Shown here: positions 13,675 through 38,051 of the stretch, one piece after another
How positions within the stretch are numbered: position 1 is the stretch's first letter
How the letters are laid out: every line of letters begins with the position of its first letter
From: a virus
Strand: one strand, 5' to 3'
Length of the DNA stretch: 41,205 nt
Virus record (IMG/VR): IMGVR_UViG_3300030110_002776
Span: 1-41,205 of that record
Translations under genes and position numbers: made by a program
Notes under the pieces: generated by a model
Databases searched by the model: none
What the model saw: the letters and a program-made list of their open reading frames with translations, nothing else
Told to the model about the DNA's origin: nothing

Positions 13675-13700
13675 TTAAACGAAAAAAAAGCTTGTATAAT

Positions 13701-13830
13701 TGAGAGCCAATAACTGGTCCTATAAGTCCTATTCGAGGGAAAGTAGTGCGGATAGAGAGAACTTAGGTTCTGCGAGGGAATGGTGCAAATCCATCGTGTA
13801 GACTAGGCAAAGGAATATGTGAGGCTCTCA
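13701..13830 (+). ncRNA. Structured RNA element B
   Basis: An 8-bp perfect closing stem TGAGAGCC/GGCTCTCA (13701-13708 with 13823-13830) encloses a hairpin AGAAC-TTAG-GTTCT (13758-13771) and a stem ATGG/CCAT (13780-13783, 13791-13794). The latter has a 7-nt TGCAAAT loop of the T-loop type. Its 5' third (GAGAGCCAATAACTGGTCCT and on) is clearly similar to element C at 17432. CGAGGGA occurs twice (13734, 13773) and GTCCT twice (13717, 13726). TATAAT stands immediately before it (13695-13700). Probably a regulatory or trans-acting RNA of unknown class. Confidence 0.65.
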
Positions 13831-13969
13831 TAATTTTAAATTTACAGGTTATTAATGTAATATACTCTAGACCCTGTAATCGTGGCGACTTCGTGTAGTC
13901 GTAATTAGAAATCAATTAGTCGGATAATGGATTACTAATGTCAATCTATAAACTGAGGAGATGGAGGGA

Positions 13970-15705: not shown

Positions 15706-15854
15706 TGGGAATTGAAAAAAAGTTAGAACAGCTAGATAAAGACCAGTTGGAGACTATATTGCTTAAATTAATTTATACAAATAAAGAAATTAATGTAGGT
15801 AATAAGACAAGAAATGAAGTTAATAAAATATGGGAGAAAGAGTTATATGGCTAA
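15699..15854 (+). CDS. Small helical protein (51 aa)
   Basis: MVMGIEKKLEQLDKDQLETI and on; a single amphipathic helix followed by a basic region, ending KIWEKELYG. ATG 15699 is 9 nt after GGAGG; ATG 15705, overlapping the upstream TAA, is an alternative. It overlaps the next gene's ATG by 8 nt and carries that gene's GGGAG site. It would fit a small accessory regulator, not identified. Confidence 0.6.
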   Translation: MVMGIEKKLEQLDKDQLETILLKLIYTNKEINVGNKTRNEVNKIWEKELYG

Positions 15855-16074
15855 AAAACAAAGTAAACAAGAAAAAGTATTAATGTATCTTCAAAATTAT
15901 GGTTCTATAACACCAATGGATGCTTATGAAATGTTTCATTCTATGAGGCTAGGAGCTATAATTCATACATTAAGACATACTGAACCTTATTATAATATTG
16001 AATCAAAGAAAGAAGGTAAAGCAGGTTATGCAAGATATACTTTAAAACCAGGTATTTATCCTGATTATGAGTAA
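15847..16074 (+). CDS. Helix-turn-helix protein (75 aa)
   Basis: 75 aa; residues 5-50 match the pattern of the phage HTH family sometimes called HTH_39: KQEKVLMYLQNYGSITPMDA, MFHSMRLGAIIHTLR, then a beta hairpin wing. This is a small winged-helix-like DNA-binding protein, likely a regulator or recombination accessory. The frame is open from 15814, but ATG 15847 is preceded by GGGAGAAAGAG and is the natural start. It is followed by a 65-nt gap and the ATPase gene. Confidence 0.75.
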   Translation: MAKKQSKQEKVLMYLQNYGSITPMDAYEMFHSMRLGAIIHTLRHTEPYYNIESKKEGKAGYARYTLKPGIYPDYE

Positions 16075-16139
16075 TTTCTTGAATAATTGTTGGAGAAATT
16101 GTAAATTATAGTGCTATCAAATAAGGAGAAACAAAGATA

Positions 16140-16886
16140 ATGAAAACATTATTAATCGACTTAGAGAATGGCTATAAATCTATTGGGAGTAAAGAAACTA
16201 TTAAAGAAAAATTTGGGTTACCCTTATTAAACTTTAATGACTTTACTTCCTTTAGAAATTTTATAGGTCAAATCTGGTCACGTAAAAAAGTAGAAAAAGA
16301 AGTACAAGTAGGTGGTATATCTGTAAAACAATCAGGCTATGAAATAATAGCTAAAGAGGGTGCAGAGGTAGACTGTATGGTTATAGATACAGCTAGTGAA
16401 ATGTCTAAGAAATATGCAAGAGAATTAAAAGGCAAAGCTGAACAATTGCAATTAAAGCAATGGGGCAAACTTAAAGATACTCTTGATAATTTCTTTTCAT
16501 TTACTAATGCTATACCAGCTAATCTTATTGTTAATTGTCATTGTAAAATGCAAGAAGATAATGAGAATGGTGTAATGAGAGTTATGCCATATATCGAAGG
16601 GTCTACAAAAGTAGATGTTGGTAAATGGTTTGATTTTGTATTATATACTAAAGTTCGTAAAGCTAAAGATGGTACTCGTGAATATGTATGGGTAACATCA
16701 AGAGATGAACATTATTGTCATGCAAAAGATAGAACACAAGAATTACCTGCTGAAATACCACAAGATTATAGTATAATATTCGATGCTGTTAATAAAAAAG
16801 GATGGGATACTGCTAAAGTACTTGTGATAGGTGAGCCAGGTAGTGGTAAGACACTTAGTCTAAGAACGTTAACGAAAATAAACTAG
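16140..16886 (+). CDS. Circularly permuted P-loop ATPase, Sak4/AAA_24-like
   Basis: 248-aa RecA-type NTPase related to phage Sak4 recombination ATPases. In the usual order Walker A comes first. Here the protein begins MKTLLIDLENGYKSIGSKET, the strand that normally follows the P-loop helix. It continues through Walker B VDCMVIDTAS (77-86) and a sensor-like strand LIVNCHCK, then ends with the Walker A motif VIGEPGSGKTLSLRTL (229-244). Joining the C-terminus to the N-terminus would give the standard domain. Start (AAGGAG, 9 nt) and stop are clean. The SSB-like gene follows after 8 nt, as in other Sak4-SSB pairs, so strand annealing or exchange is the likely role. Confidence 0.8.
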   Translation: MKTLLIDLENGYKSIGSKETIKEKFGLPLLNFNDFTSFRNFIGQIWSRKKVEKEVQVGGISVKQSGYEIIAKEGAEVDCMVIDTASEMSKKYARELKGKAEQLQLKQWGKLKDTLDNFFSFTNAIPANLIVNCHCKMQEDNENGVMRVMPYIEGSTKVDVGKWFDFVLYTKVRKAKDGTREYVWVTSRDEHYCHAKDRTQELPAEIPQDYSIIFDAVNKKGWDTAKVLVIGEPGSGKTLSLRTLTKIN

Positions 16887-16894
16887 GAGAAACT

Positions 16895-17413
16895 ATGGGA
16901 ATAGTTGTAACTAAAAAAGAAGGTGGTGGATATGATGAAGGTTGGAAAACTGTAACTGTATCTAACGCTGTAAAGGGTGATTTCAATGGCTCTAAATATA
17001 TTGATTTACACTTTGAAGGATACCCTGAAACTGTAAAATGTCGTGTATGGGAAGCACGTAATAAAGACGGAGAAGAGTTCTCTGTATCTAATATGGTAAG
17101 ATATATTAATCCAACTGTACTAGAAGAAATGGATAAAGATGGCACTGCTGCTGCTAGTCTTGATGATTCGCCAAATGGTTTAAAAGGTAAATCATTACAA
17201 GTGTTATTTTATAAAAAAGCTAATGGCTATTCTGAAATATCACAAAAGGTAGCACCTGCTGTACCATTTGAAAATATAGTAGATAAATTTGACGACAATA
17301 GAATTGCTCGTATAAAAGAGTCTGCTGAAAAATACCAAGCTAGAAGAAATGAAGCTAATGGTGTTGTAAGTGAAACAAATACCGAGTCATCAAATGGTGA
17401 TGTTCCTTGGTAA
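16895..17413 (+). CDS. Single-stranded DNA-binding-like protein
   Basis: 172 aa. The beta-rich N-terminal two thirds contain TVTVSNAVKGDFNGSKYIDL and VLFYKKANGYSEI, consistent with an OB-type domain. A flexible polar linker leads to the C-terminal tip SSNGDVPW. An acidic tip with proline and a terminal aromatic is typical of SSB proteins, which use it to dock partners. It lies directly between the ATPase and the primase-helicase, supporting a replication/recombination role. AGGAG precedes the ATG. Not matched to a named family with certainty. Confidence 0.7.
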   Translation: MGIVVTKKEGGGYDEGWKTVTVSNAVKGDFNGSKYIDLHFEGYPETVKCRVWEARNKDGEEFSVSNMVRYINPTVLEEMDKDGTAAASLDDSPNGLKGKSLQVLFYKKANGYSEISQKVAPAVPFENIVDKFDDNRIARIKESAEKYQARRNEANGVVSETNTESSNGDVPW

Positions 17414-17431
17414 AATAGTATAAACAATAAC

Positions 17432-17526
17432 TAAAGAGAGTCATAACTCGTCCTGTATAAAAGTCCTAACTACGATAACCTTTTCAGGTGCCCTGTTAGG
17501 CAGAGGAACACGTATGGCTCTCTTTA
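17432..17526 (+). ncRNA. Structured RNA element C in the primase-helicase leader
   Basis: A perfect 9-bp closing stem TAAAGAGAG/CTCTCTTTA (17432-17440 with 17518-17526) encloses CCTAAC/GTTAGG (17465-17470 with 17495-17500), capped by ACCT-TTTC-AGGT (17478-17489). Its 5' part resembles element B: GAGAG, ATAACT, GTCCT, TA and AGTCCTA occur in the same order. It fills the only real gap in this part of the operon and ends 20 nt before the primase-helicase ATG, so cis-control of that gene is plausible. Confidence 0.65.
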
Positions 17527-17546
17527 TTAACATAAGGGGAAATAAT

Positions 17547-19292
17547 ATGATAAGAGAATTTGCTTTCGGATTATCAAATAGACATCACTTCTTCCCAAGT
17601 GATAATTCAGTAAAATGGGAAAACGTGGCTAAAGATACATTTCTATCCTTATATGGCTATGATGAAGAGGTAATAGAATACTTTAATGAAAAGAAAACAC
17701 TATCAGGCTATAATGGTATAATATATCTTCCAAGAGAATTTATGCTTGACGTTGATGGTAGTGAAATTGAAGAAGCTCAAGAAAAAACTATTAAATTAGT
17801 TTCTATGCTTAATAATATTGGCGTTCCTAGTAATATTTATTTTAGTGGCAGAGGGTTTCATGTTGGTATTCCAGACAAAGCATTTAAATGGAAACCAGAT
17901 ACAAATCTTCATTTAAAAGTTAAAGATGAGTTAGATAAAAAAGGTATATACAAATATGCTGATGTATCTGTTACTGATAAAACAAGAATAATACGTCTAA
18001 ACAACACATTAAATAGTAAATCTAAATTGTGGAAGATTTATATAACTAATGAAGAATTACTTGAACTAAATAGTTTAGGTATTAAAGCTTTAGCTAATAA
18101 ACCAAGACAAATAGAAATACCTGTATTACAATGTGAACCTGTATTTGATGTAACTGTTAGGGAAGTTAAAAAACAAACTATAAAATACAAAGAAACTGTA
18201 GGTAAAGAACCTGACCCTATGTTATATCCATGCATACAAACAATGTTAAAGGGTACATCTTATGGTGGTAGACATGCAACTGCTTTACGTCTTGCTGCTT
18301 GGTTAAGATGGCGTTATCCAGAAAATATTGTAAGACTTGTAATGGAAGACTGGCGTAAAAGAGTAACTACAAATGAAAATCCATTTAAACAAATAGAAAT
18401 GGACAGAATAGTTACTGATTGCTATAAAGGTCATAATGGTAGTGGCTATAGATATGGCTGTAATGATAAAATAATGGATAAACATTGTAATTCTACATGC
18501 ACATTATTTAAATCAAAGAAATCTCAAGGTATAATGTCTGCTAATGATATGGAAGAAAATTTAATTAGCTGGCTTAAAGGAGACGTAGTTCCTATAAATA
18601 TTGGTAAATTGTATAATGCAGACTTTCCTGTATATCCAGGCGAGTTAGTAGTAATACAAGCTCCACCAAAATCTATGAAAACTATGTTGCTTCAAAATTG
18701 GGTTAATTCATTTAAAAGACCTACATACTTTTTAGAGATGGAGATGTCACCAAGACAGATATGGCAACGTTTCATTCAGATAGAACAAGGATGGACTGAA
18801 GAACAACTTAAAGAACATTATGCTACTGGTCAGTATAAAATGGCTGATAAATTTAATTGGCTTAATGTTGACTATAATGCATGCTTTGCTATTGAACTAG
18901 AAAAGAAAATATCTATGTTACAAGAAAAGCCTGAGATTGTAGTAGTTGACCATATGGGCTTATTACTTTCTAAACATAGAGACTTAAATCTTAAAATGGA
19001 AGAAATAGCAGGTGCTTTAACTGAAGTAGCTGTTAAGCATAACATAGTTGTATTTGCTATATCTGAGATTACTAAATCTGCTATGGTAGAGGGTATGGGT
19101 GTTTCTTCTTCTAGAGGCTCATTTAGAATAGCATATAATGCAAGTAAAATATTATCACTTAAACCAGACAAAGGTTTAGATGGTAATGTTAAGTCATTAC
19201 TTGTTACTACAGAAGCTAACAGAGAAAGAGGTGCTTTAAATACATTAATTAAAGTAGATGGTGTTAAAATGTTAAGTGCAAATAGAGGTTAA
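17547..19292 (+). CDS. Primase-helicase fusion (AEP primase plus DnaB-like helicase)
   Basis: 581 aa from ATG 17547, which follows AAGGGG; an upstream in-frame ATG at 17514 lies inside element C and has no ribosome site. N-terminal archaeo-eukaryotic primase motifs: MLDVDG (D68, D70), SGRGFHV (100-106) and IIRLNNT (R150). Four cysteines (C229, C305, C314, C318) could bind Fe-S or zinc as in PriL-like domains. The C-terminal RecA-like helicase has a P-loop QAPPKSMKT in which the usual Gly before Lys is Met, Walker B IVVVDH (465-469), GSFRIAYNASKI and EANRERG. It would prime and unwind at the viral fork. No DNA polymerase is in the window. Confidence 0.85.
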   Translation: MIREFAFGLSNRHHFFPSDNSVKWENVAKDTFLSLYGYDEEVIEYFNEKKTLSGYNGIIYLPREFMLDVDGSEIEEAQEKTIKLVSMLNNIGVPSNIYFSGRGFHVGIPDKAFKWKPDTNLHLKVKDELDKKGIYKYADVSVTDKTRIIRLNNTLNSKSKLWKIYITNEELLELNSLGIKALANKPRQIEIPVLQCEPVFDVTVREVKKQTIKYKETVGKEPDPMLYPCIQTMLKGTSYGGRHATALRLAAWLRWRYPENIVRLVMEDWRKRVTTNENPFKQIEMDRIVTDCYKGHNGSGYRYGCNDKIMDKHCNSTCTLFKSKKSQGIMSANDMEENLISWLKGDVVPINIGKLYNADFPVYPGELVVIQAPPKSMKTMLLQNWVNSFKRPTYFLEMEMSPRQIWQRFIQIEQGWTEEQLKEHYATGQYKMADKFNWLNVDYNACFAIELEKKISMLQEKPEIVVVDHMGLLLSKHRDLNLKMEEIAGALTEVAVKHNIVVFAISEITKSAMVEGMGVSSSRGSFRIAYNASKILSLKPDKGLDGNVKSLLVTTEANRERGALNTLIKVDGVKMLSANRG

Positions 19293-19293
19293 T

Positions 19294-19782
19294 ATGAGTA
19301 AAAGAAGTCTAAATGAAATAAGTAGTGATATAATGTTAGTACAAAATAGTTTTGAATTAACTGAACAAGAAATTGATGAACAGTTAGATATACTGCATAC
19401 TGAACTACATAAAAAAGAAAATGGTGTTTACTGGTTTTATAAGAATATAGATAGTAAGATTGATTTAGCTAAAGAGTATAAAGAAAAAGCTGATATGGTT
19501 ATTAAAAAGCTTAAATATACTCAAGAAAGCTTAAAAAATCTTGTTATCGAAGCTTATGGAGCTAGTGGACAACTTCCAGCACATGATGATTTCAATCCAA
19601 TTAAAATAGGTGAAACAGGTAAAGTAGAAATAATAGATGAAAAAAAGATACCTGAAGAATACTATGTTGAAAAGATTGTATTAAAGCTGGATAAAAGAAG
19701 GCTACTTGAGGAATTAAAAGAGGGAAAAGATATTCCTGGAGTAGTATTACAAACAAACAAACACGTCAGGGGGTTAAAATGA
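19294..19782 (+). CDS. Gp157-like protein
   Basis: 162 aa. It fits the phage Gp157 family: an N-terminal helical region (LTEQEIDEQLDILHTEL), a coiled coil with KYTQESLKNLVIEAYGASGQ, then a short beta part with VEIIDEKKIPEEYYV and a C-terminal IPGVVLQTNKHVRGLK. ATG 19294 is preceded by AGAGG; the upstream in-frame start at 19276 would overlap the helicase gene further. It is found next to recombination genes in other phages; the biochemical role is not settled. Overlaps the DUF932 gene as ATGA. Confidence 0.75.
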   Translation: MSKRSLNEISSDIMLVQNSFELTEQEIDEQLDILHTELHKKENGVYWFYKNIDSKIDLAKEYKEKADMVIKKLKYTQESLKNLVIEAYGASGQLPAHDDFNPIKIGETGKVEIIDEKKIPEEYYVEKIVLKLDKRRLLEELKEGKDIPGVVLQTNKHVRGLK

Positions 19783-20649: not shown

Positions 20650-21501
20650 ATGAAATTTATACAAAGAAAAACAATGAAAATAAGACCATCTGGTCGTAGT
20701 AGTGATTTTATAACACCATCATTTGGCTTTGGATGTTTATATAAATGTGAGTATTGTTATATGAGAAGACATTTACCTAATGGTTTAAATATTGCTACAA
20801 ACACAGATGCTATAATTGACGAAATACATGCACATTTATGGTTATTACCATGGCCTAAAAAACCTAATCAAACACACGAAAAATATTATACATATGATTT
20901 TAGCTGTAATGAAGATTATATATTACATGCAAAGTATCATGAATGGGATTTATTATTTGATTACTTTAAAACAAATGATAAAGCTATGGGTACTGCAGCA
21001 ACTAAATACGTTAATAAAAAATTACTGGGGTATGATGCTAACAGAAAAATTCGCATAAGGTTTAGCATTATGCCTCAAGTAATATCAGATAAACTAGAAC
21101 CTAGCACATCTAAAATTATAGATAGAATAAAAGCTGTTAATGATTTTTATGAAGCTGGTTATGATGTTCACCTAAACTATTCGCCTATTGTAGTATATAA
21201 AGATTATATAAAAGATTATATAAAATTGTTTAAATTAGTAGACGAAATAGTGGATGAGAGTATTAAAAATAAAGTTAAAGCTGAGTGTATTTACTTAACA
21301 CATAATGAAAAAATGCATAGTATTAATAGTGAAGATGCAAAAGATTTATTATGGAAGCCAGAAATACAGGAGAAAAAAACTTCTAATTATGGTAATGTAA
21401 ATATTAGGTACAAATACAAATTAAAAAGAAAATATATAGAAAATTTTATACAAGCACATGATAATGCTTTACCATGGCAAGAAGTTAGATATATATTTTA
21501 G
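20650..21501 (+). CDS. Radical SAM protein, spore-photoproduct-lyase-like
   Basis: 283 aa. FGFGCLYKCEYCYMRR gives the C-x3-C-x2-C 4Fe-4S motif (C29, C33, C36) at the N-terminus, with SAM-barrel strands after it (KIRIRFSIMPQVIS, YDVHLNYSPIVVY). The ClyrCeYCY form, a basic R-P-S-G-R-S-S lead-in and the overall size resemble spore photoproduct lyase relatives. Repair of a DNA photolesion is therefore possible, but DNA or tRNA modification is equally open. AGGGG precedes the ATG. Followed by small coiled-coil genes. Confidence 0.75.
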   Translation: MKFIQRKTMKIRPSGRSSDFITPSFGFGCLYKCEYCYMRRHLPNGLNIATNTDAIIDEIHAHLWLLPWPKKPNQTHEKYYTYDFSCNEDYILHAKYHEWDLLFDYFKTNDKAMGTAATKYVNKKLLGYDANRKIRIRFSIMPQVISDKLEPSTSKIIDRIKAVNDFYEAGYDVHLNYSPIVVYKDYIKDYIKLFKLVDEIVDESIKNKVKAECIYLTHNEKMHSINSEDAKDLLWKPEIQEKKTSNYGNVNIRYKYKLKRKYIENFIQAHDNALPWQEVRYIF

Positions 21502-22641: not shown

Positions 22642-22855
22642 AGACAAAGCAAAAAACCTTGTTGAGTTTGCTAAGTACACAAATGATAATGAACTTGACT
22701 CTGTGGTAAAAGAGATTGTAAATTTAGTACAGGAACAAAGACTAGAATTATTAACAGAAGTTTTATCACTAATTAAAAGAGGTGCAAGTGAAACCATCAT
22801 CCAGGAAAGGAAAAGGCAGGAGGCTGCAAAACTTTCTAAGAGACAAACTTTATAA
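22628..22855 (+). CDS. Unknown helical protein (75 aa)
   Basis: 75 aa beginning MASIRDKAKNLVEFAKYTND, two or three helices with an acidic middle and a basic C-terminus (ERKRQEAAKLSKRQTL). AGGAG lies upstream, inside the end of the histone-fold gene. The last 68 nt are shared with the nuclease gene in another frame. No family is recognised. Confidence 0.7.
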   Translation: MASIRDKAKNLVEFAKYTNDNELDSVVKEIVNLVQEQRLELLTEVLSLIKRGASETIIQERKRQEAAKLSKRQTL

Positions 22856-23135
22856 TTATTTCCCTACCCTCAGAGAGGGTGACGTTAAGACAGCTGTAAT
22901 GGGAGAGTCTGGTGAAGATATCATTCTTTCCCCTGCAGCAAGGGATTTAATACCGTTTAGCTTTGAATGTAAAAATCAAGAAAGGTTAAACATATGGGAA
23001 TCTTTGTCTCAAGCCGAAGATAATTGCAAAGAATATATACCTGCAGTAGTATTTAAAAGAAACAGAACCAAGACATATATAACTCTTGAATTAGAAGAGT
23101 TTTTAAAAATAATAGGAGAAACAAATGAACGATAA
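22788..23135 (+). CDS. PD-(D/E)XK nuclease, Holliday-junction-resolvase-like
   Basis: 115 aa from GTG 22788 (AGAGG just upstream; GTG 22782 is an alternative). It begins KPSSRKGKGRRLQNFLRDKL, then GESGEDIILSPAARDLIPFS and FECKNQERLNIWESLSQAED. The D...E-x-K pattern (D in GEDI, FECK) and the conserved SPAAR and CKNQE stretches match a widespread family of small phage nucleases. It would cut branched DNA before packaging or act in recombination. It overlaps the previous gene by 68 nt and the next by 11. Confidence 0.75.
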   Translation: MKPSSRKGKGRRLQNFLRDKLYNYFPTLREGDVKTAVMGESGEDIILSPAARDLIPFSFECKNQERLNIWESLSQAEDNCKEYIPAVVFKRNRTKTYITLELEEFLKIIGETNER

Positions 23136-26900: not shown

Positions 26901-29900
26901 TTATACACCTCTACAAGCATCTCTTATTATAATCTCTATTGCTTGTCCACCTTTCATTTCTCTAACTTTGTCTACTTTAATTCTACTTTCATTATTCACG
27001 ATATCATTGTATTCTTTAAAATAAGCCTTAATAATAGAAGCGTCAAGTAAGTTTAAATTCTTAGGATTAACACTTACTGGAGGTATAGATATTGGATATC
27101 TATTTTTACCAGTTACTGAATTATTCTGAAGACTCATTAAACCTCTCAAAAAATATAATGTTGCTGCAGATTTAGCTGTCTCACTTAAAGCTCTAAATTT
27201 AAGGTCATGTTTTTCAATCCAATTAATAAGTTCAGTATTAAAATTCATAATATCAGAACCTTTAACAATAATATTTTTTAATAAAGATAAATATTCTTTA
27301 CTCATATTCTCTGCATATATTCTACCTTCTCTATCTTGAGATTTAGCCCATGTGTCATTAGTTCCTTTAAAGTTCCCAAGTTTTTTATCTTTTTCAACTT
27401 TAGATTCAAATATTTCAAGCCCTAATCTATTAATATATTCTACACTTTCAATGTGAGCATTTTTATGCACATCATTTGATATATAATAAGGTGAGCCTTC
27501 ATATCCAAAATAATTCCAATTTTTTTCTAATTTGTTCCAAATTTTATAAGGTAATATAGCTAAACTTTCTAAAGCAGTTAAAGAACTATTTTTAATATCT
27601 ACTTCGTATTGATTATCTAGTATAAGAGCTTCTCTATATATATTTCCAGCTTCTAAATTTGTATTATCATCTAATCCCATAATAATTTGTAATTCTTTAC
27701 TATTTTTTATCATATCTCTTAAACCATATTTTTTAAATGAATCTAAGCCTTTTCTTACATTGTTTACTCTTGTAAAAAGATTTAAATGAGCTACTATTGC
27801 ATCTAAATGCATATTTTTAGCTGTTTCATTTTGAATATTTATATCTAATAAACTTTTTAATAATCCATTCTTACTGTAATTCCATTCTTCCAAAAGACTA
27901 AATTCGTTATTGTCAGCAGCAGCTTGTAACCATATTCTTAAATATTCATCAACAGTTCCTGACCAGCCACCTTTTTTACCTAAGTAAGTTGCTTCAGGAA
28001 ACTTAATTATTTCATCAGGTTGTCTGACTCTTATTTTTATATTAGTATTTTTAATATTAAATCCGTTATAAACTTGACTTATAATACCGTATATTAATGC
28101 CACATTAGAAACTTCAGATATAGCATTCTGTCCAGCCATTAAATTATTCATAGTTTCAAATCTAGATTTTTGAGTTAGTGGATTCTTAACAATACCTGAA
28201 GCAAATTTATTTAAATCAACTCCTTTTACTTTTAAACTATCTAAATAAGGTTTGTAAACAGCTTCTGTTTCAGGACTTAGTAATTCTATATGAACTTCAT
28301 CTCCATCATAATCTCCTTCAAGCTTAACAAATACATCTCTCCAATTTAATTCTGCTAAGTGACTTCTTTCATGTAAGTTTTTTACTCTAGCCATAAAAGC
28401 TCCACCTTTATGAACTACTGGACTTCTTGTTATCATAACATTGATTTCGTGTTTTTCAAGCAATTCATTTAATCTTGATACTGATAATTTTTTACCACCT
28501 GCAGAATTTTGTCTTGGAATACCTTCTAAATCATGCAGTCTGTCTATAACCATTTGTGAATTTTGTACAGCTAAAGATACTTCTGATGTATTGCTATCAG
28601 GACTTAGTGAAGATTTCAAACTACCAGTAAAATCAGGAGATAAATCATATATAGAACCAGGAGAGTCTCCCATATTAATAATAGTATCAACTATTTGAGT
28701 TTGAACTAATTTATCTACTTTTATTTGTAAGGATGGATGCAGACCTGCACCAAGTTTTGCAAGTTCAAGTGCAATGTCATCAAATCCTTCTATATTTTTA
28801 CCTTTTAATTTATCAAAGAATTGAGCAATACTATTCTGTGCTGCAACTCCACTTTTTGTATTTGGAACAAACCTTCCTTTATCATCCATTTTACTACTAA
28901 AAGATAAATAAAAAGCTCTAGATAATTTCTTTTCTACTTCAGGAACCATTACATTTACAAAATGATTAATTACATTTTCATCATAAACATAGTTATACCA
29001 TTGCATTATATGTTTAATTGTTTTTTTATGAGATTCTGCAAACTTAATAACACCTAAAGATTCTCCTGGAATTGTTATTCCTGTATTACTTGGAAGACCA
29101 AAGCTGTCATCAATAAATCCAGAACTAAATGCTTTATTAGTTTCCATTTTTATTTCATCTTCAGTAGAAAGCATATCAACATATATTCTAATTTCATTTC
29201 CTTCATTGTCAGTATCAATAGCTTGTATATTTCTATTGTCGTCAACTATCCATAAGACTTTTTTTGTTTTTTTATCTATTACTTTAAACCCTTTTTTAGG
29301 TAAAATGTGGTTATGTTTTACAGCTAACATTGAACCTAATTTATTATTAGCATATATAACAGTTTTTAATTTTGCTTGATTAGGTGCTAAACCAAAACTA
29401 TCTTCAACTTTTTTAAATAAATCTTTAGAAGTTAAACTGCCACCATCTCCTATATATTTATTAGTTATTCCACTACCACTTCTTACAGGATTAAACTTTT
29501 TACCATCTATATATTGAAATTCAACATCTTTAGGGTCAAATTTAGCAATTGTAAAATCAGACATTTCTTTACTTCCAGTGATAGGGGTAAATGGTATTTT
29601 AATTCTTTTAAATAAATTAGATGCACCTTTTGGATTTGCTAAGTAGTTAGGAAATATTTTATTCATTTCATAATAAACAGCTATATCTTTTGCTATATTT
29701 GCAATTGGTTGATTTAAATGTTCTTTTATAAATTGTTTTTTAATTTTAATATCTTCAGCATTAGAGTCATCTTTTGGTAATTCATTATTCCAAAAATTAT
29801 TTAACTTTTCTTTATTTGAAGCAATATCTAAAATAGAATCACCATATTCTTTTTGAAATTCTAAATTATCTGTATAATTAAAAAGACCTAATTTCTTAGA

Positions 29901-32900
29901 ATCTCCTCTAATAAAAGCTATTGTTAAACCTAATTTATTTACTTCTTTTTCTAACATCTCTAATTCTTTTGTATTAAAAAATGTATATGATTTACCCCAA
30001 TCTTTAAATTTAACTTGATTTCCAGTTTGAGGATTTGTTGTATATATTTGGTTTCCATTTTCATCAAATTGATTAACTAATCCAAGTACATCTCCTCCAC
30101 TAATAAAGGATATATTTTTATTACCCATAATAGATTCATATAATGTTTGTTTTTCATATTGATTATTTTGATTTCCTGTTACTACATTTATAGGCCCTTT
30201 AAGCTCAACTTCTATTTTTGTAGTTTCAAAACTATTAGTTTCTTGATTAAATTGTTGATGCTTTTTAATAACATAATTATCTCTTTGATTTAATGCAGCT
30301 ACTGGTTTACCGTTAATTAATTCTATATTTCCATTAGTTTTTAAAGAATACATAACTCTGTTATAATATTTATGCAATGCATTATCTTGTCTTTTTGTTA
30401 AAAACTTAGCACTACGTTTAAAATAGTTAGGCATAACAAAATTTTTCCAAGAATTATAATCTGCATAATCTCCTATTTTAACACTTGCTGTAATCTTTTT
30501 TATATCAGATTTTTTTAATGTAATATTTAATTCACGTATAGTTTGTAAATCAGCTTTACTAACATCTCTTTCATTTGTACCTGCTTGTTCTGATATATTA
30601 GCTAAACCTTCGTCTAATTCATCTACAATATCAATAACAACTTCGTTCATATCATCAGTATTAATCCAATGGTATTTAGATTTATTATCTAATTTTCTAA
30701 CATATTTTTTATCATTTCTCTTATCAGCAAACTTTTTATTAAACCATTTTTCAAAGCTATCTTGTACAGGGTCTAATCCAGATAAAGCATCTAACATCAT
30801 ATCTCTATATTCAAATATATCAGCCATTTCAGTAACTTTACTTATAAAATTTATATAATTAGTTTTTCTTAAATTATTAACTTCTTTCCATGCAGTTTCA
30901 AACATATCTTCTGCTATCTTAGTATCATATAATCCTAGTATAGGTTTATTAAGATTCTCGATATCAATCTTTCTTTTAATTTTTGTTTTAATCTGCGTTT
31001 GATTTTGAGGTTTAGTTTTATTATTTATATTATTTTTTAATACTTTCTTGTATCTATAAGGCAATAACTTATCAGGGTTTTTAACATCAACTGTCCAAAG
31101 AGGATATTGAGCCCAATCAGGAAAAGCTAGTCTTAAATTTAAATTATATTTTTTACTTGTTTTTTCTAACTCTTTAGTAAATATACCTTTACTTATTGGA
31201 ATTATCTTTAAATCAAAACCTGCTTTTTTCATTTGTTCTTCTAACATTTTATAGTCATCACTTCTTTCTAAAGTAAAATCTACTTTTTGAGAATATTTAT
31301 CTCCTTTTATTTTATATTTAGTTATATATTCAAATTCTCCTTCTTTAATATATGCAGGTGTATCTTTATCAAACTTTATTTTATTTTTAGAAAGAGCTTT
31401 AAATATATCAGAGTATTTAGAATCGTTTATCATAAAATCAAAAAAATCTTTATAAATACGATAACTTTCTTTTAAACTTAAATCACCTATTTTTTTTCCA
31501 TATGGAGCTAACTTTTGGAAAAGATTATCATAAGCAACTACTAGCATATTGTTTGCTGTAAAAGAACCAAGTTTTTCTGTTACCTCTGCAATAAAATCAT
31601 CAGCAGGAATATTGCTTATAAATCTATCAATATTATCCCATTGAGCTTCTTCTTGAGTATTATATACACTTTTAGCCATAGCATTGCCTTCTATTAAAGT
31701 AATTACTTCTCCAGTATTTAAATAAATAGGTTTATTTGGATTTGTTAAATAAGCATGTCTAATAGAATGTAATATATTAATATTAAACCAATTTTTAGAT
31801 AATGACACAACTTCTTGCATTCTTTTAATTTCTAAACTAGAGTCAATTTCATCTTTAAAGCTTACTTGAAAATCTTCACCTTCTGGAGATAAAGATTCTA
31901 CAGCTTGTTTTTGAACAACGTCATAAGCTGTTAACAAAGATATGCCCATTTTTAATTGCTTATGTATATAATTTTTAGTAATATTTTTTAATAATAAATC
32001 AAATGTTTTATCTGTTGTTCCTTCTTCTTCTAAAATATTTTTAACCCATTCCATTTTTTGAAGAGTAGTTTTATGAGTTTCATAATCTCTCTTATAATTA
32101 CGATATTTATTTCTTATAAGGTTCCACTTTTTTAACTCTGCCCATTGTAATTTTCCAGTTTTAGATAATTTAAATTTTCTATTTCCATTACGAGAAATAA
32201 GGTCTGACATTTTAAACACACCTTCATCCATCATTATCATGTCTTCTATATACACAAAAGCTCTTCCTATAGAAGTATTAGAATTATATGTTCCAAATTT
32301 ATTTGTATCATAATCACTTTGCTCGTTATGCAATTTTAATAAATATTTATAAAAACTATTTTCTGGGTTTCTAATATTTCTACCCTTATCCATTAAAGTA
32401 CCTTTTGGAAATTGTAAATATCCATCATAACCATAATCGTCATCTTGCCACCATTCCCAAAATTCATATAAATCTTTTCTATCTTGTTTTGTATAAGGGC
32501 TATCTTCTCCGTAACTAAATAAAACATTTGAAATTTGCTTTGCTATTCTTAAATCAGGAAATTCATCATATTTTTTATTTTTAAGACTATTTAATTGAAT
32601 ACTAAATTCACTATTCTCATTTAATATATCTGCTGGTGTTATATTATAACTAGTTTCTACAAAAAAGTATTTATCATCTAAAAAATCATTTGATATAATT
32701 TCAAACATTTCATCTAATATTTGATTAGTAGTAGGAACATACCCTTCTAAATTATTAGGATTTAATCTTTTTTGAGCTCCAAAATAAATATCATTTAAAA
32801 TTTTGTCTGCTATTTTAGTATTAATTATATTTATTGATAAATTCCAATTTATTTTTATATCATTTATACTTCTCTTATTTGCTAAATTAACAACAGAAAT

Positions 32901-35900
32901 ACGACCTTTTTGTTCTGGAGAATTAATATCTATATCTTTACCTAATACGAGTAAAAGACTCTTTAATCCATTCATTTCTATTTCTTTGTTTAATCTATCA
33001 TAAACTGAAAACGCAGGTCTATTTGCATATTTTCCTACTGAAATACTTGATATTGCTTTATTTAAAATAATAGGAACATTTCCATAACTAGTTTGAGTAT
33101 AGCCACCTTTTTCAATTAATTTTTCTACAGATGGCATTGATTTAATATCATCTTTAGTTAAAACTAAGTCTTTCAACTTGTTAGCATTTTTCATAATGTT
33201 AATAAATTCCATTAAAACATCTGATTGAAATTCAAATAATAGTTTTCCTCCATCACGAGTAGGAGAAACTCCATACCATCCAACTCCTGTACCACCATCT
33301 AATTCAGGAAAACCATGCATTATTGCACCTGTCCAAGAATTGTTCATATGAGCTACCATTCTATAAATGCTATTATTGTCTCCGTAAGCAAGAAAGTCTT
33401 TTGATACACCAGTTGCAAGTGAAATTCCATCCTGTAAATATTCTGAAAATGCAGTAGTCCCTATGTAGTTTAATCCACTTTGTGCATTTGAATAATTTAA
33501 ATATAATTCTGCTAATACAGAACGTTTCATAGACTTTGTTTTAGGGTTTTCTTTTTTAAATTGATTTACAAAACTTTTTATGTTTTCCTGCTCATTTTTT
33601 CTTATTCCAGGCATTTTAAGCATATCATCTATATTGTATAAAGCATCTGGATTACTTAATAATATATCTACAGGTTTATAAATAAATTCTACTTTTTGAT
33701 TTAATGCTACCATTGCAGTTGCAGCATCAAACAATTTATCTTGAAACTTTTTAGTATCAACATTAATTACTGAATATGCACCTATAAGATTTCTTATTTT
33801 ATTCTGTATTTCACTTTTAGCTTTAATTACAGCATCTTGATTTTGTAAATGCCATTTTCCTCCAAATTTTCTTCTAGTTATTTTATAAGTTTTTTCAATA
33901 GATTGAGTCCATTTTTCAGTAAGAGATATAATATCTATTTCTTTTTTTCTAGAAATAATACTAGTAAGCATATTTTCAATATTTTTTTCTTCTGAATACA
34001 TAATAGAGTTAGTAACATTTTCAATTATTTCTTCAGGTGAATTATTTACTGGAAGATTGTCATTGCTTATTTCATTTATAGTTTCAAAAATATTTTCATC
34101 TAAATTGATTTCATACCTATTTTCAAAATTTGTTATTATATTAACAAGGTCTCTTAAACTAGTATTCGGACTTAACATTTCAGCTTCAGAACCAAATATA
34201 TTTACTTTTGTTTTTAATCCAAGTTTTTCAAAAAGCCAATTAAAGAAATTTTGAACAGCTTGAACTAATTTATTTTTAGAATTATATCTATAAATATTTC
34301 CTTTACCAGCTTCTTCTATAGCACGAACAACTATTTCTTCTTGAATATCTACCTCTGTTTCATCTGCATATTCTAATCTTATTCTATCAATATCTAATCT
34401 TTCTGAATTAATAACTTCATCATATATCTTTTTAAATAATTTAGGGTCAGACATTCTAAGCATAGAAACAATAGGATGAGATAGTTCATGCAATACTGTT
34501 CCTATATCTACTTTAGCTTTATTAACAACTATAGTTTTGCCTTGTATATATCCAGAGTCTTCTTCAGGATTATCAATAAACTCTAATTTGAATTTGCCTT
34601 TTTTTAATTTAACATTTGATATAAGTTTATTAAATATATCTTTAGTATTTTGTTCAAATTTATCTTTTCTGTCTTGTTCTATTTCTTGTTTAGTAGGAGC
34701 AATATCTACTTTCTTTTTCTTTTTATCTAAACCTTCATCTATTTTTTTTTGTCTTGCATCTTCTGCAATCTTAGCTGCTTCTTCTCCATAATTATCTTTT
34801 ATTAATTCAACTAATTTTGACCCTGTATGACTTAATGCTTTAGCTGGGGTTAAACTTTCAAATTTTTCTATTATTTGTGTTGAACTTATATCATTTCGAG
34901 TTTTATCTTTTATAGGTTTGAATACTTTTTCTTCAACTTCAGGAAGTTCTTCTTTTTTAGTTCTATCTAATTTTTCTTTTTCATATAAGTCTAAAGTTTT
35001 TTCTGCTATTGTTTTATTAAAACCTGTCGATACATTTATAGCAATCTTTTGTTTTTCTATAGCAGAGTCTAATTCTTTATCTGACATTTCTTGAGCTGTT
35101 TTACCTCTTCCTGCAGGAGCTCCTTGAGGTCTTTGTGCCCCTGTATCAACTTGTTCAGTAGGAGCTTCTTGTGTAGGGCCTGTTTCAATTGGAGGACCTG
35201 TTTCAAATTCAGGGCCTGTTTCTGGTCCTGCTTCAGGTATTATACTTGTTGGAGTATCTTGAATAACGCCTGTAGGTTTAGGGCTTACAACAGGAGTAGG
35301 AGTATCTTTAGTGTCTACTTCTTTTTCAAGTCTTGTTGTAGTTGGTTTAGTATTTGTACGTTTTGCATCATTTATAAATATATCTTCAAGAGTTTTTCTT
35401 TTTTGTTTATAATCAGCATCTTCATCAAAAGCCATATCAAATCTTTTAAATATTTTCTCTTCTCTTTTACGAACAAAGTCTTTAAGATTTTCATCTTGAC
35501 TTGTTAATATCATATTTACAGAATCTATTATAATACTAGAATCTTCATCAATACCAGCACTTTCAGCGTCTTCTTTTATTTTAACTATTTCTTCATTCTC
35601 ATTACTTAAATCTTCTAGAACAAAAGCTCTTATACCTATCTTTAATTTATTTAATTTTTGAAAATCACTTTGAACATTTGAAGGAGTGTTTTTAACTTCT
35701 CCCTCATTTAAATTTGAAAAATCTTTATGCAATTTAATAGCATCATCATTTTCTAATCCTTCTAAGCCACCAAATTTATCAAATGTTCTTTTTACTTTAA
35801 ATAAAAAGTCATTATTTTCTTTTGCAACTCTTTGAGCATTACCTTTCTTTTTAAAAGTATCTTTGCCTTTTTCAAATATATCTCCATTATTATCATATAT

Positions 35901-38051
35901 ATTTACAACCCACTCACCAGCTTCATTTTTTTCTGCTCTAGCTTCACCATCTTTAACATCTTTTAAATTATATGCTTGTATTTTATTATTAGCTTCTTGT
36001 GTAGATAAATTAAACAAGTTAGCCATATGTGCTGCATCACCTCTACTGTTATAAGATACTGGTATTTGCTCTCCTGTTTCAGGATTTAAAACATCTTCTT
36101 TATTTAATTTAGAAACTGTTCTTTCAATAGTTACATTACCGTCACTATCTTTTACTTCATCGCTTACAATGTTAATAAGGTCATATGACCTAGTATCTTT
36201 ATTCCATTCAAATGCATAAAATATTCCACTTTTATCTTTAGATAATTCAATAATCTGTTTATTCTGTTTTGATAAAACTGAGCCTGTAAGTCTATTTGTT
36301 ATAGCCTGAACACCAAACATAGAGCCTAAAAAGCCACCAAAAAACTCATCTCTTACTTGTTTAAGGCCTCCATGCATCTCATTAAAAGAAGGGCTGTAAA
36401 ACTCTCTTTTATAATGTCCTAATCCAATTGGTCCATGAGCAGCAATAGCAGCTTGTTCATAACCTTGTGCAACTTCTTCAAGACCTTCCATAAAACTTCT
36501 ACCAGCTATTGGCAAACTATTTACAGTAAGCCATCTTCTTGTTCTATTGCCTATACCAGTTCCAACCATTTTTCTTGCTCTTGCTTCTAATTTATCTTGA
36601 GCTCTTCTAAGTATATTTAAACCTGTAGCATCTCCTACATTATATATAAACTTTTCAAATCCTGGGAAAGTAGTTTTTAATAACTTACCACCAACTAAAC
36701 TTAAATTTTCAGTAGCACCAGCTACTCCTATATAAGCTAATGTATTTAATTCTGTAACATCTGCAGCTTCAGGAGCACTTAATCCTATTTTAATAAATCT
36801 TCCATCTTTTTCGAAAATATTAGATTTATTCCACATATCCATATATTCTGAAGTTGATATAGGTCTACCGAATTGCTTTCCTATTATATCTTTTATCCCA
36901 TCTTTATTTTGTATATATTCATTTCTTTCTTGTTCAAAAAGTCTTTGAGCTCCTTCAGCTGTTATTTCCATAGGTTTAGTTAATCTTTCCATTTCTGATA
37001 TAGAATATTCACCACCATTTAATGTTCCTCCAGCAAGTGATGAAGCAGTTATATAACCTACTCCAGTTCCTCCAGGACCAAAAAAAGAACCTACAAGACC
37101 ACCTAGAAATCCAAAACCTTCTGTTAATAATTGTGAAGATAAAGAATTACCTAATGAATTAGTAGCATATTTTAAAAACCCTGTTAGCCCTTCACCAAAT
37201 GGTCCAGCATCTCTTTCCCATTCTCTAACAGCCATAGCTTGTGGATTTTCTAATAAATACTTTGCTTCATATTCAGTTGCTTCTTTCATTTTTGTATCAC
37301 GCCATAAATCTATATTACTAGCATGTTGTTTTGTTGATGCCCATTCAAAACTAATTAAATCTTCTGATGGTCTTTCACCACTAATCATACTATATCTTTC
37401 TACAAATTCATCTCTATAAAATTGCTCTGTAAGTAAATCAAATTGTTGTTTTTCTTCTTGATTAAGTGATGTTAAATTTTCTGTATAATGGTCTGCTAAA
37501 TATCTGTCTGAGTTAATATTTCCTGGAGATTTAACTAATGGAAGAGATTTATATTCATTTATTTTTTGATGAGGTGGAATAAAACCACTAGCTAATATTC
37601 CTGTAGCAGGTGTGCCTCCAGTACCAATAAATGCATCTACTGCATTATTAGCACCAATTTGGTAGTCATATAAGAATGATTTTTTAATTCTGAAAAATGC
37701 ATCACTAGCAATGTCTCCAAATGTAGGTTCTCCAAGCATCCTATCAGTTAATGGATGATTTTCTGAAATAGCTTTTTGTACTAATTCATTATCATCATAA
37801 TCATTATATACTTCTGGGTTTGTTTTGTAGCTTTCTAATCTTAATACTGCAGCAGCATCTTCATTAGTTAGCATTTTAGGATTGCCTTGTGAATCAGTTT
37901 GATTTAAAATTTGTTCTTGAGATTTACTTATATCATCTATATAAGTAGCTTCTTCTTGGAGTGCTAGTTCTAGCTCTTCTTGTTTTTTCTTATACTCATC
38001 TTCAGTTAAAAAATACCCTGAATAAATAGAGTTTCCTTCTTTGTATGCCAT
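26901..38051 (-). CDS. Giant polyvalent virion protein with metallopeptidase and two-barrel RNA polymerase
   Basis: 3716 aa in one frame. In order: helical N-terminus; Gly-rich hydrophobic segment (about 285-345) possibly membrane-active; Pro/Thr/Glu linker with ETGP repeats (about 905-985); zincin motif HELSH (1188-1192) with EEIVVRAIEE about 50 residues on; a long middle region; and a polymerase-like C-terminal part. The last has DGGSLTSKDL (from 2869) followed by candidate lysines near 2912, as in one barrel, and RSPVVHKGG (3209-3217) then EGDYDGDEVHIE (3245-3256), the Mg-binding DxDGD of the other barrel. This resembles the virion RNA polymerase of phage phi14:2 and RNAi-type polymerases. 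It is in the late operon, so it is probably packaged, ejected and used for early transcription. AAAGGA precedes the ATG. Confidence 0.8.
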   Translation of the reverse strand: MAYKEGNSIYSGYFLTEDEYKKKQEELELALQEEATYIDDISKSQEQILNQTDSQGNPKMLTNEDAAAVLRLESYKTNPEVYNDYDDNELVQKAISENHPLTDRMLGEPTFGDIASDAFFRIKKSFLYDYQIGANNAVDAFIGTGGTPATGILASGFIPPHQKINEYKSLPLVKSPGNINSDRYLADHYTENLTSLNQEEKQQFDLLTEQFYRDEFVERYSMISGERPSEDLISFEWASTKQHASNIDLWRDTKMKEATEYEAKYLLENPQAMAVREWERDAGPFGEGLTGFLKYATNSLGNSLSSQLLTEGFGFLGGLVGSFFGPGGTGVGYITASSLAGGTLNGGEYSISEMERLTKPMEITAEGAQRLFEQERNEYIQNKDGIKDIIGKQFGRPISTSEYMDMWNKSNIFEKDGRFIKIGLSAPEAADVTELNTLAYIGVAGATENLSLVGGKLLKTTFPGFEKFIYNVGDATGLNILRRAQDKLEARARKMVGTGIGNRTRRWLTVNSLPIAGRSFMEGLEEVAQGYEQAAIAAHGPIGLGHYKREFYSPSFNEMHGGLKQVRDEFFGGFLGSMFGVQAITNRLTGSVLSKQNKQIIELSKDKSGIFYAFEWNKDTRSYDLINIVSDEVKDSDGNVTIERTVSKLNKEDVLNPETGEQIPVSYNSRGDAAHMANLFNLSTQEANNKIQAYNLKDVKDGEARAEKNEAGEWVVNIYDNNGDIFEKGKDTFKKKGNAQRVAKENNDFLFKVKRTFDKFGGLEGLENDDAIKLHKDFSNLNEGEVKNTPSNVQSDFQKLNKLKIGIRAFVLEDLSNENEEIVKIKEDAESAGIDEDSSIIIDSVNMILTSQDENLKDFVRKREEKIFKRFDMAFDEDADYKQKRKTLEDIFINDAKRTNTKPTTTRLEKEVDTKDTPTPVVSPKPTGVIQDTPTSIIPEAGPETGPEFETGPPIETGPTQEAPTEQVDTGAQRPQGAPAGRGKTAQEMSDKELDSAIEKQKIAINVSTGFNKTIAEKTLDLYEKEKLDRTKKEELPEVEEKVFKPIKDKTRNDISSTQIIEKFESLTPAKALSHTGSKLVELIKDNYGEEAAKIAEDARQKKIDEGLDKKKKKVDIAPTKQEIEQDRKDKFEQNTKDIFNKLISNVKLKKGKFKLEFIDNPEEDSGYIQGKTIVVNKAKVDIGTVLHELSHPIVSMLRMSDPKLFKKIYDEVINSERLDIDRIRLEYADETEVDIQEEIVVRAIEEAGKGNIYRYNSKNKLVQAVQNFFNWLFEKLGLKTKVNIFGSEAEMLSPNTSLRDLVNIITNFENRYEINLDENIFETINEISNDNLPVNNSPEEIIENVTNSIMYSEEKNIENMLTSIISRKKEIDIISLTEKWTQSIEKTYKITRRKFGGKWHLQNQDAVIKAKSEIQNKIRNLIGAYSVINVDTKKFQDKLFDAATAMVALNQKVEFIYKPVDILLSNPDALYNIDDMLKMPGIRKNEQENIKSFVNQFKKENPKTKSMKRSVLAELYLNYSNAQSGLNYIGTTAFSEYLQDGISLATGVSKDFLAYGDNNSIYRMVAHMNNSWTGAIMHGFPELDGGTGVGWYGVSPTRDGGKLLFEFQSDVLMEFINIMKNANKLKDLVLTKDDIKSMPSVEKLIEKGGYTQTSYGNVPIILNKAISSISVGKYANRPAFSVYDRLNKEIEMNGLKSLLLVLGKDIDINSPEQKGRISVVNLANKRSINDIKINWNLSINIINTKIADKILNDIYFGAQKRLNPNNLEGYVPTTNQILDEMFEIISNDFLDDKYFFVETSYNITPADILNENSEFSIQLNSLKNKKYDEFPDLRIAKQISNVLFSYGEDSPYTKQDRKDLYEFWEWWQDDDYGYDGYLQFPKGTLMDKGRNIRNPENSFYKYLLKLHNEQSDYDTNKFGTYNSNTSIGRAFVYIEDMIMMDEGVFKMSDLISRNGNRKFKLSKTGKLQWAELKKWNLIRNKYRNYKRDYETHKTTLQKMEWVKNILEEEGTTDKTFDLLLKNITKNYIHKQLKMGISLLTAYDVVQKQAVESLSPEGEDFQVSFKDEIDSSLEIKRMQEVVSLSKNWFNINILHSIRHAYLTNPNKPIYLNTGEVITLIEGNAMAKSVYNTQEEAQWDNIDRFISNIPADDFIAEVTEKLGSFTANNMLVVAYDNLFQKLAPYGKKIGDLSLKESYRIYKDFFDFMINDSKYSDIFKALSKNKIKFDKDTPAYIKEGEFEYITKYKIKGDKYSQKVDFTLERSDDYKMLEEQMKKAGFDLKIIPISKGIFTKELEKTSKKYNLNLRLAFPDWAQYPLWTVDVKNPDKLLPYRYKKVLKNNINNKTKPQNQTQIKTKIKRKIDIENLNKPILGLYDTKIAEDMFETAWKEVNNLRKTNYINFISKVTEMADIFEYRDMMLDALSGLDPVQDSFEKWFNKKFADKRNDKKYVRKLDNKSKYHWINTDDMNEVVIDIVDELDEGLANISEQAGTNERDVSKADLQTIRELNITLKKSDIKKITASVKIGDYADYNSWKNFVMPNYFKRSAKFLTKRQDNALHKYYNRVMYSLKTNGNIELINGKPVAALNQRDNYVIKKHQQFNQETNSFETTKIEVELKGPINVVTGNQNNQYEKQTLYESIMGNKNISFISGGDVLGLVNQFDENGNQIYTTNPQTGNQVKFKDWGKSYTFFNTKELEMLEKEVNKLGLTIAFIRGDSKKLGLFNYTDNLEFQKEYGDSILDIASNKEKLNNFWNNELPKDDSNAEDIKIKKQFIKEHLNQPIANIAKDIAVYYEMNKIFPNYLANPKGASNLFKRIKIPFTPITGSKEMSDFTIAKFDPKDVEFQYIDGKKFNPVRSGSGITNKYIGDGGSLTSKDLFKKVEDSFGLAPNQAKLKTVIYANNKLGSMLAVKHNHILPKKGFKVIDKKTKKVLWIVDDNRNIQAIDTDNEGNEIRIYVDMLSTEDEIKMETNKAFSSGFIDDSFGLPSNTGITIPGESLGVIKFAESHKKTIKHIMQWYNYVYDENVINHFVNVMVPEVEKKLSRAFYLSFSSKMDDKGRFVPNTKSGVAAQNSIAQFFDKLKGKNIEGFDDIALELAKLGAGLHPSLQIKVDKLVQTQIVDTIINMGDSPGSIYDLSPDFTGSLKSSLSPDSNTSEVSLAVQNSQMVIDRLHDLEGIPRQNSAGGKKLSVSRLNELLEKHEINVMITRSPVVHKGGAFMARVKNLHERSHLAELNWRDVFVKLEGDYDGDEVHIELLSPETEAVYKPYLDSLKVKGVDLNKFASGIVKNPLTQKSRFETMNNLMAGQNAISEVSNVALIYGIISQVYNGFNIKNTNIKIRVRQPDEIIKFPEATYLGKKGGWSGTVDEYLRIWLQAAADNNEFSLLEEWNYSKNGLLKSLLDINIQNETAKNMHLDAIVAHLNLFTRVNNVRKGLDSFKKYGLRDMIKNSKELQIIMGLDDNTNLEAGNIYREALILDNQYEVDIKNSSLTALESLAILPYKIWNKLEKNWNYFGYEGSPYYISNDVHKNAHIESVEYINRLGLEIFESKVEKDKKLGNFKGTNDTWAKSQDREGRIYAENMSKEYLSLLKNIIVKGSDIMNFNTELINWIEKHDLKFRALSETAKSAATLYFLRGLMSLQNNSVTGKNRYPISIPPVSVNPKNLNLLDASIIKAYFKEYNDIVNNESRIKVDKVREMKGGQAIEIIIRDACRGV

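Follow-up and report, generated by a model that had tools for sequence, protein, structure and literature searches.

Does a phage ATPase gene whose P-loop stands at the far end of the chain encode one domain in rearranged order, and what would such a protein do? The question is raised by an open reading frame in a 41,205-nucleotide stretch of viral DNA (IMG/VR record IMGVR_UViG_3300030110_002776; hereafter the window). The protein, here called cpSak4, is very probably a circularly permuted Sak4 with a single RecA/Rad51-core ATPase domain, for which an intramolecular fold and annealing in partnership with a single-stranded DNA-binding protein (SSB) are probable. The gene and its parts are as follows.

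16140-16886 (including the stop codon), + strand: cpSak4, circularly permuted Sak4/RecA-core ATPase, 248 aa, an ATG...TAG open reading frame
16123-16128, + strand: Shine-Dalgarno-like box AAGGAG, from the sequence
16140-16799, + strand: body, residues 1-220, from the rotation scan and the alignment to residues 49-258 of the Sak4 of Staphylococcus phage 52A
16149-16172, + strand: LLIDLENG, residues 4-11, with E9 invariant in permuted and unpermuted Sak4
16377-16400, + strand: Walker B-like MVIDTASE, residues 80-87, with D83 and E87 invariant
16722-16733, + strand: AKDR, residues 195-198, with K196/R198 aligning with K229/R231 of Sak4 52A
16800-16814, + strand: join GWDTA, residues 221-225, linking the former C-terminus to the former N-terminus, from the rotation scan
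16815-16829, + strand: P-loop strand KVLVI, residues 226-230, from the AlphaFold2 model
16830-16853, + strand: Walker A GEPGSGKT, residues 231-238, relocated C-terminally, from the sequence and the order conserved in relatives
16854-16877, + strand: helix after the P-loop, residues 239-246, the final element of the chain, from the AlphaFold2 model

The body runs from the strand next after the P-loop helix in ordinary Sak4 to the point where ordinary Sak4 chains end, and the β1-P-loop-α1 segment (residues ~224-248) is C-terminal instead of N-terminal. An earlier note on this DNA had read the order as LLIDLENG, Walker B, sensor and a C-terminal Walker A; the order of the three main motifs held, but the sensor did not stand as a separate motif, and 10 residues, not 11, follow GEPGSGKT. 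The remaining conserved motif is AKDR followed by S or T (195-199). Residues E9, G11, D83, E87, P150, D165, K196, D197 and R198 are invariant in all 101 permuted and unpermuted sequences, and E9 is proposed as the equivalent of the RecA catalytic glutamate. GGAG/AGGA-type boxes precede nearly all homologues (25 loci checked), and no second P-loop lies upstream of the start in 25 loci, where the in-frame upstream stretch spans 0-13 codons.

Profile searches find one domain in two pieces. The AAA_24 match to the protein is split in two, with the main piece aligning residues 2-199 to profile positions 24-195; on the DNA, profile positions 23-195 fall at 16140-16736 and positions 3-24 at 16812-16877, so that the two pieces add up to exactly one complete domain with its parts interchanged. 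The Sak4-like family phrog_124 also matches the native protein in two pieces, and both profiles score above their cut-offs. No further AAA_24 domain was found in a profile search of the DNA of the record, and the Pfam matches of cpSak4 included no GTPase family up to E 1 and no PF04404 (ERF) match. When the C-terminal 26 residues were placed in front in silico (de-permutation), each profile gave a single continuous match, with phrog_124 rising from 94.8 to 112.6 bits (E 1.4e-26 to 5.2e-32) and AAA_24 from 63 to 77 bits, which largely supports the proposal that joining the C-terminus to the N-terminus restores the AAA_24/Sak4 order. Matches with at least 80% coverage in a tblastn search of isolated phages were obtained in 0 records with the native protein vs 29 with the de-permuted one, many of the latter carrying a Sak4-like or RecA-like annotation.

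The position of the cut was located with an HMM built from 8 unpermuted phage Sak4s, against which all 248 cut points of cpSak4 were scored. The scan peaked at cut 222 (111.9 bits; native order, 92.2; worst sampled cut, 47.6). All 55 non-redundant permuted proteins gained 14.7-23.7 bits with the optimal cut just ahead of the P-loop, vs a mean gain of 0.65 bits in 46 unpermuted viral Sak4s and ~0 in the 8 phage Sak4s. In a sequence search of the PDB, a profile from de-permuted and ordinary sequences matched the solved Sak4 of phage 52A (8rc5) at 1e-5, while the native-order profile had no Sak4 match. The permutation, its conservation, its single origin, the predicted core fold and the gene slot were all established computationally.

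The predicted structure agrees with this assignment. AlphaFold2, run with an input alignment of 101 rows (55 permuted and 46 unpermuted sequences), gave a confident model (mean pLDDT, 93.1; pTM, 0.89) in which residues 226-230, the P-loop and residues 239-246 are confidently placed; a shallow run with 21 close permuted sequences only had given a poor model (pLDDT 56) and was replaced. The best solved match is 8rc5 (Z 13.1; rmsd 3.0; 166 residues); RAD51 paralogues come next at Z ~10, and cpSak4 is predicted to have the RecA/Rad51 core fold but to lack the C-terminal domain of RecA. The structural alignment pairs model residues 1-220 with chain residues 49-258 of 8rc5, ending where a permutation predicts, and the Walker A of Sak4 52A (K41/T42; 8rc5 paper) lies just ahead of the aligned range, the signature of permutation in a sequential alignment. 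A Foldseek search of the model against the PDB returned no match at E <= 0.001, which is expected of a permuted chain and is not proof of one. In the HMM alignment the conserved lysine K196 falls on chain index 249 of 8rc5, which is residue 229 after subtraction of a 20-residue tag; the 8rc5 paper places K229, R231 and H232 of the adjacent protomer at the ATP-gamma-S of Sak4 52A.

The genes around cpSak4 point to a recombination and replication module.

15814-16074, + strand: HTH_39 winged-helix protein, syntenic neighbour upstream of cpSak4, from a profile match
16895-17413, + strand: SSB-like candidate partner, 172 aa, with an acidic/aromatic tail GDVPW, from a weak phrog_378 match, the tail and the slot census
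17547-19292, + strand: primase-helicase (DnaB_C), replication neighbour, from profile matches, with its start from alignment
19276-19782, + strand: Gp157/Mu Gam-like protein, syntenic neighbour, from profile matches
22782-23135, + strand: RusA-like Holliday junction resolvase, recombination module, from a profile match and the loci of relatives

The gene order is winged-helix, cpSak4, SSB-like, primase-helicase, Gp157-like, DUF932 and RusA-type. Wherever both genes are resolved, cpSak4 is immediately followed by the SSB-like gene (127 loci, some from the same contig). The best phrog_378 SSB match among the SSB-like proteins reaches only 0.0099, and most of the aligned proteins end in an acidic tail with a DxPF-type tip (DxPF in the relatives), which together hint that the partner is an SSB. 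In 14 loci of sister phages the cpSak4 slot holds an ERF annealase (PF04404 E 5e-21 to 2e-24 in the five proteins tested), and cpSak4 and ERF never occur together; no ordinary-order Sak4 was found in the slot among the loci surveyed, the other occupant being ERF. The phages with ERF instead of the permuted Sak4 include L087, L092, L095, L096, L101, L107, L110 and L131, several of which carry a ThiF-like gene just upstream (PF00899 in L095; L101, L110 and L131 look alike). Elsewhere in the window are a spore photoproduct lyase-like radical SAM protein (20650-21501, + strand; PF20903, 4e-22), the placement of which varies in relatives, and a 3716-aa open reading frame (26901-38051, - strand) that occupies about one fifth of the 53.6-kb record.

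Annealing by the Sak4 of phage HK620 depends on ATP and is stimulated by the cognate SSB, the last six residues of which are needed, and an SSB gene is adjacent to up to 80% of sak4 genes (PMC5928155). Based on the analogy to HK620 Sak4, the SSB-like gene downstream and the presence of ERF in the same slot, the most likely role of cpSak4 is ATP-dependent annealing of single strands in concert with its SSB, and we infer ATP use, filament formation, annealing and stimulation by SSB. It remains unlikely that the permuted core folds correctly and does not anneal, acting instead as a mediator resembling the Rad51 paralogues or as an SSB-loading or regulatory ATPase; such a role would fit the RAD51 paralogues as next solved neighbours after Sak4, but cpSak4 shares its slot with ERF annealases, adjoins the SSB-like gene and stands alongside ERF in none of the resolved loci.

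In this reading, β1-P-loop-α1 has moved from the N-terminus to the C-terminus of cpSak4, with the old termini joined by ~5 residues and the new termini opened between α1 and β2. The chain is predicted to fold intramolecularly into an ordinary Sak4 core: the C-terminal P-loop would meet E9 and D83 of its own chain, and in a filament K196/R198 would reach the ATP bound by the adjacent subunit. The protein would probably bind single-stranded DNA in an ATP-dependent manner and probably anneal complementary strands covered with the product of the SSB-like gene just downstream, and this annealing would serve phage recombination and replication. There is a small chance that the permutation has changed the mechanism of the recombinase: the P-loop arm would be a free C-terminal element at the subunit interface, and the assembly of filaments, the turnover of ATP or the recognition of partners would be unlike those of ordinary Sak4, for example through arm swapping between neighbours or through C-terminal extensions that gate the ATP site.

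A domain swap, in which the C-terminal β1-P-loop-α1 arm inserts into the neighbouring subunit to give an interlocked filament, so that each active site is made of two or three chains, appears quite improbable. The permuted chain ends at the ATP site, and in Sak4 52A that site sits at the protomer interface; the join, moreover, is just ~5 residues long. Against this, in the AlphaFold2 monomer the arm is confidently packed onto the body of its own chain (pLDDT 96 for residues 221-230 and 94 for 231-240), and a short join favours intramolecular packing as well.

The permuted order is conserved across a large group of relatives. Scans of viral contigs with widening queries yielded 25, 31 and 167 relatives (80 kept of the 167), further relatives were obtained from a viral-contig scan with the neighbouring primase-helicase, and after duplicates were dropped by contig name the same permutation was present in 89 distinct viral contigs, at 43-98% identity to the window protein. 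The P-loop lies at the C-terminal end in all intact members, on account of which cpSak4 is classed as a permuted relative of the Sak4 family and not as one of its ordinary members. Most members have ~10 residues after the P-loop and some have more, with L129, L130 and L177 carrying ~55-80 residues, rich in charged and polar residues, beyond the P-loop helix. Among the contigs one gene is frameshifted (L024/L053/L161) and one is cut at its start. The dN/dS ratio against close relatives (0.10-0.15) indicates purifying selection, and in the last 28 codons most differences between close relatives are synonymous.

These data also bear on the reading, now very improbable, that the C-terminal P-loop is a truncated second ATPase domain or a vestigial repeat beside an independent N-terminal part. 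The two-piece raw profile match fits it, and nothing more does: six P-loop residues (G231, P233, G234, G236, K237 and T238) are invariant in the 55-row permuted alignment, where only positions 232 and 235 of the motif vary, the changes in the tail are mostly synonymous, and the AAA_24 pieces (3-24 and 23-195) sum to one domain. The second truncated domain that the earlier note had named as an alternative is thus not what was found, the body having no other P-loop, ~10 residues trailing the C-terminal one and a single AAA_24 domain being present. That the order is an artefact of assembly, sequencing or gene calling is scarcely credible: the record is an IMG/VR contig and the relative L024/L053/L161 is frameshifted, but the identical order and gene context recur in 89 independent contigs, and the clean start and stop described earlier, with no assembly break, are borne out by the ATG...TAG frame and its AAGGAG box.

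In a tree built from de-permuted and unpermuted proteins, a single branch (SH-aLRT 99) separates all permuted members from the rest, and one change of order accounts for the tree; with long outgroup branches, its reading is limited to the permuted/unpermuted split. Identity to the closest unpermuted homologues is only 22-28%. A tandem duplication that then lost its outer parts would yield the order of cpSak4; no direct trace of one was seen, and no duplicated form with a P-loop at both ends was found among the relatives searched. One candidate for such a form, L230, was rejected as an ordinary N-terminal P-loop plus a chance pattern match. No bacterial or prophage copy of cpSak4 was detected in two scans of genome contigs, nor was a plasmid copy found.

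Compared with known systems, the Sak4s of HK620 and 52A share with cpSak4 a RecA-core-only ATPase with the conserved glutamate, Walker B and KxR motifs, and in HK620 also the adjacent SSB gene, but their P-loop is N-terminal (K41/T42 in 52A) whereas that of cpSak4 occupies residues 231-238 of 248. All regions of the phrog_124 and AAA_24 (PF13479) profiles are present in cpSak4, but in circularly permuted order. ERF (PF04404), which takes the slot of cpSak4 upstream of the SSB-like gene, is an unrelated sequence family, and ERF annealases are not ATPases. The likeness to YjeQ drawn earlier is apt in that the GTPases RsgA/YjeQ and YlqF are likewise permuted P-loop NTPases, but cpSak4 is a RecA-core ATPase and its cut differs in position. 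The permuted GTPases have the order G4-G5-G1-G2-G3, in which β1-P-loop-α1-β2 is contiguous; the cut in cpSak4 lies between α1 and β2, inside that unit.

A UniProt protein of 248 aa, A0A516LUR7 (BFVD model; 88% identity to cpSak4; TM 0.95), was already deposited and, matching cpSak4 over the whole chain, must share the permuted order; no description of its permutation was found. In line with the earlier claim of novelty, the literature searched contained no permuted Sak4 or RecA core, with subscription papers and preprints thinly covered, such that this absence is not proof; papers on permutation near RecA and P-loop topics concerned methylases or Rossmann folds, not Sak4 or RecA cores. To our knowledge no permuted RecA/Rad51-type recombinase has been published.

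One proposal casts the β1-P-loop-α1-β2 unit as the ancestral seed from which P-loop NTPases arose (PMC7758060). In a phage lineage that is widespread, this unit is divided between the two ends of the chain with its residues retained, and therefore the need for contiguity in folding or function becomes directly testable. Many ocean phages would carry a rearranged RecA/Rad51-type annealing enzyme that searches in native order miss or see as a partial AAA_24 match, and surveys of marine-phage recombinases therefore probably under-count.

The window also contains two copies of a conserved structured RNA (13694-13839 and about 17431-17527, + strand), an element that is strongly covarying and unrelated to cpSak4. 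A covarying outer stem is formed around CAAYAACTGGTCCTRTAAGTCC ... AGGCAAAGGAATATGTGAG, and the inner hairpin is variable. Across 29 copies, 97.2% of cells pair and 10 of the 20 pairs change on both sides, a covariation equalled in none of 500 shuffles. The element had no Rfam match even at E <= 1, and its core motif occurs in at least 119 viral stretches. Longer copies (L007, L015, L017, L020, L024 and L095) have an extra arm between GGTCCT and AAGTCCT, and the element is therefore modular. The mechanical start of the primase-helicase reading frame, 17514, falls within the element (window 17514-17547); the alignment and an ATG after AAGGGGAAATAAT both favour a start at 17547. In L051 and L079, another repeat-flanked and possibly structured element, ATATCCCTG...GGGGATAT, lies between the SSB-like and primase-helicase genes, the same intergenic place as the RNA element.
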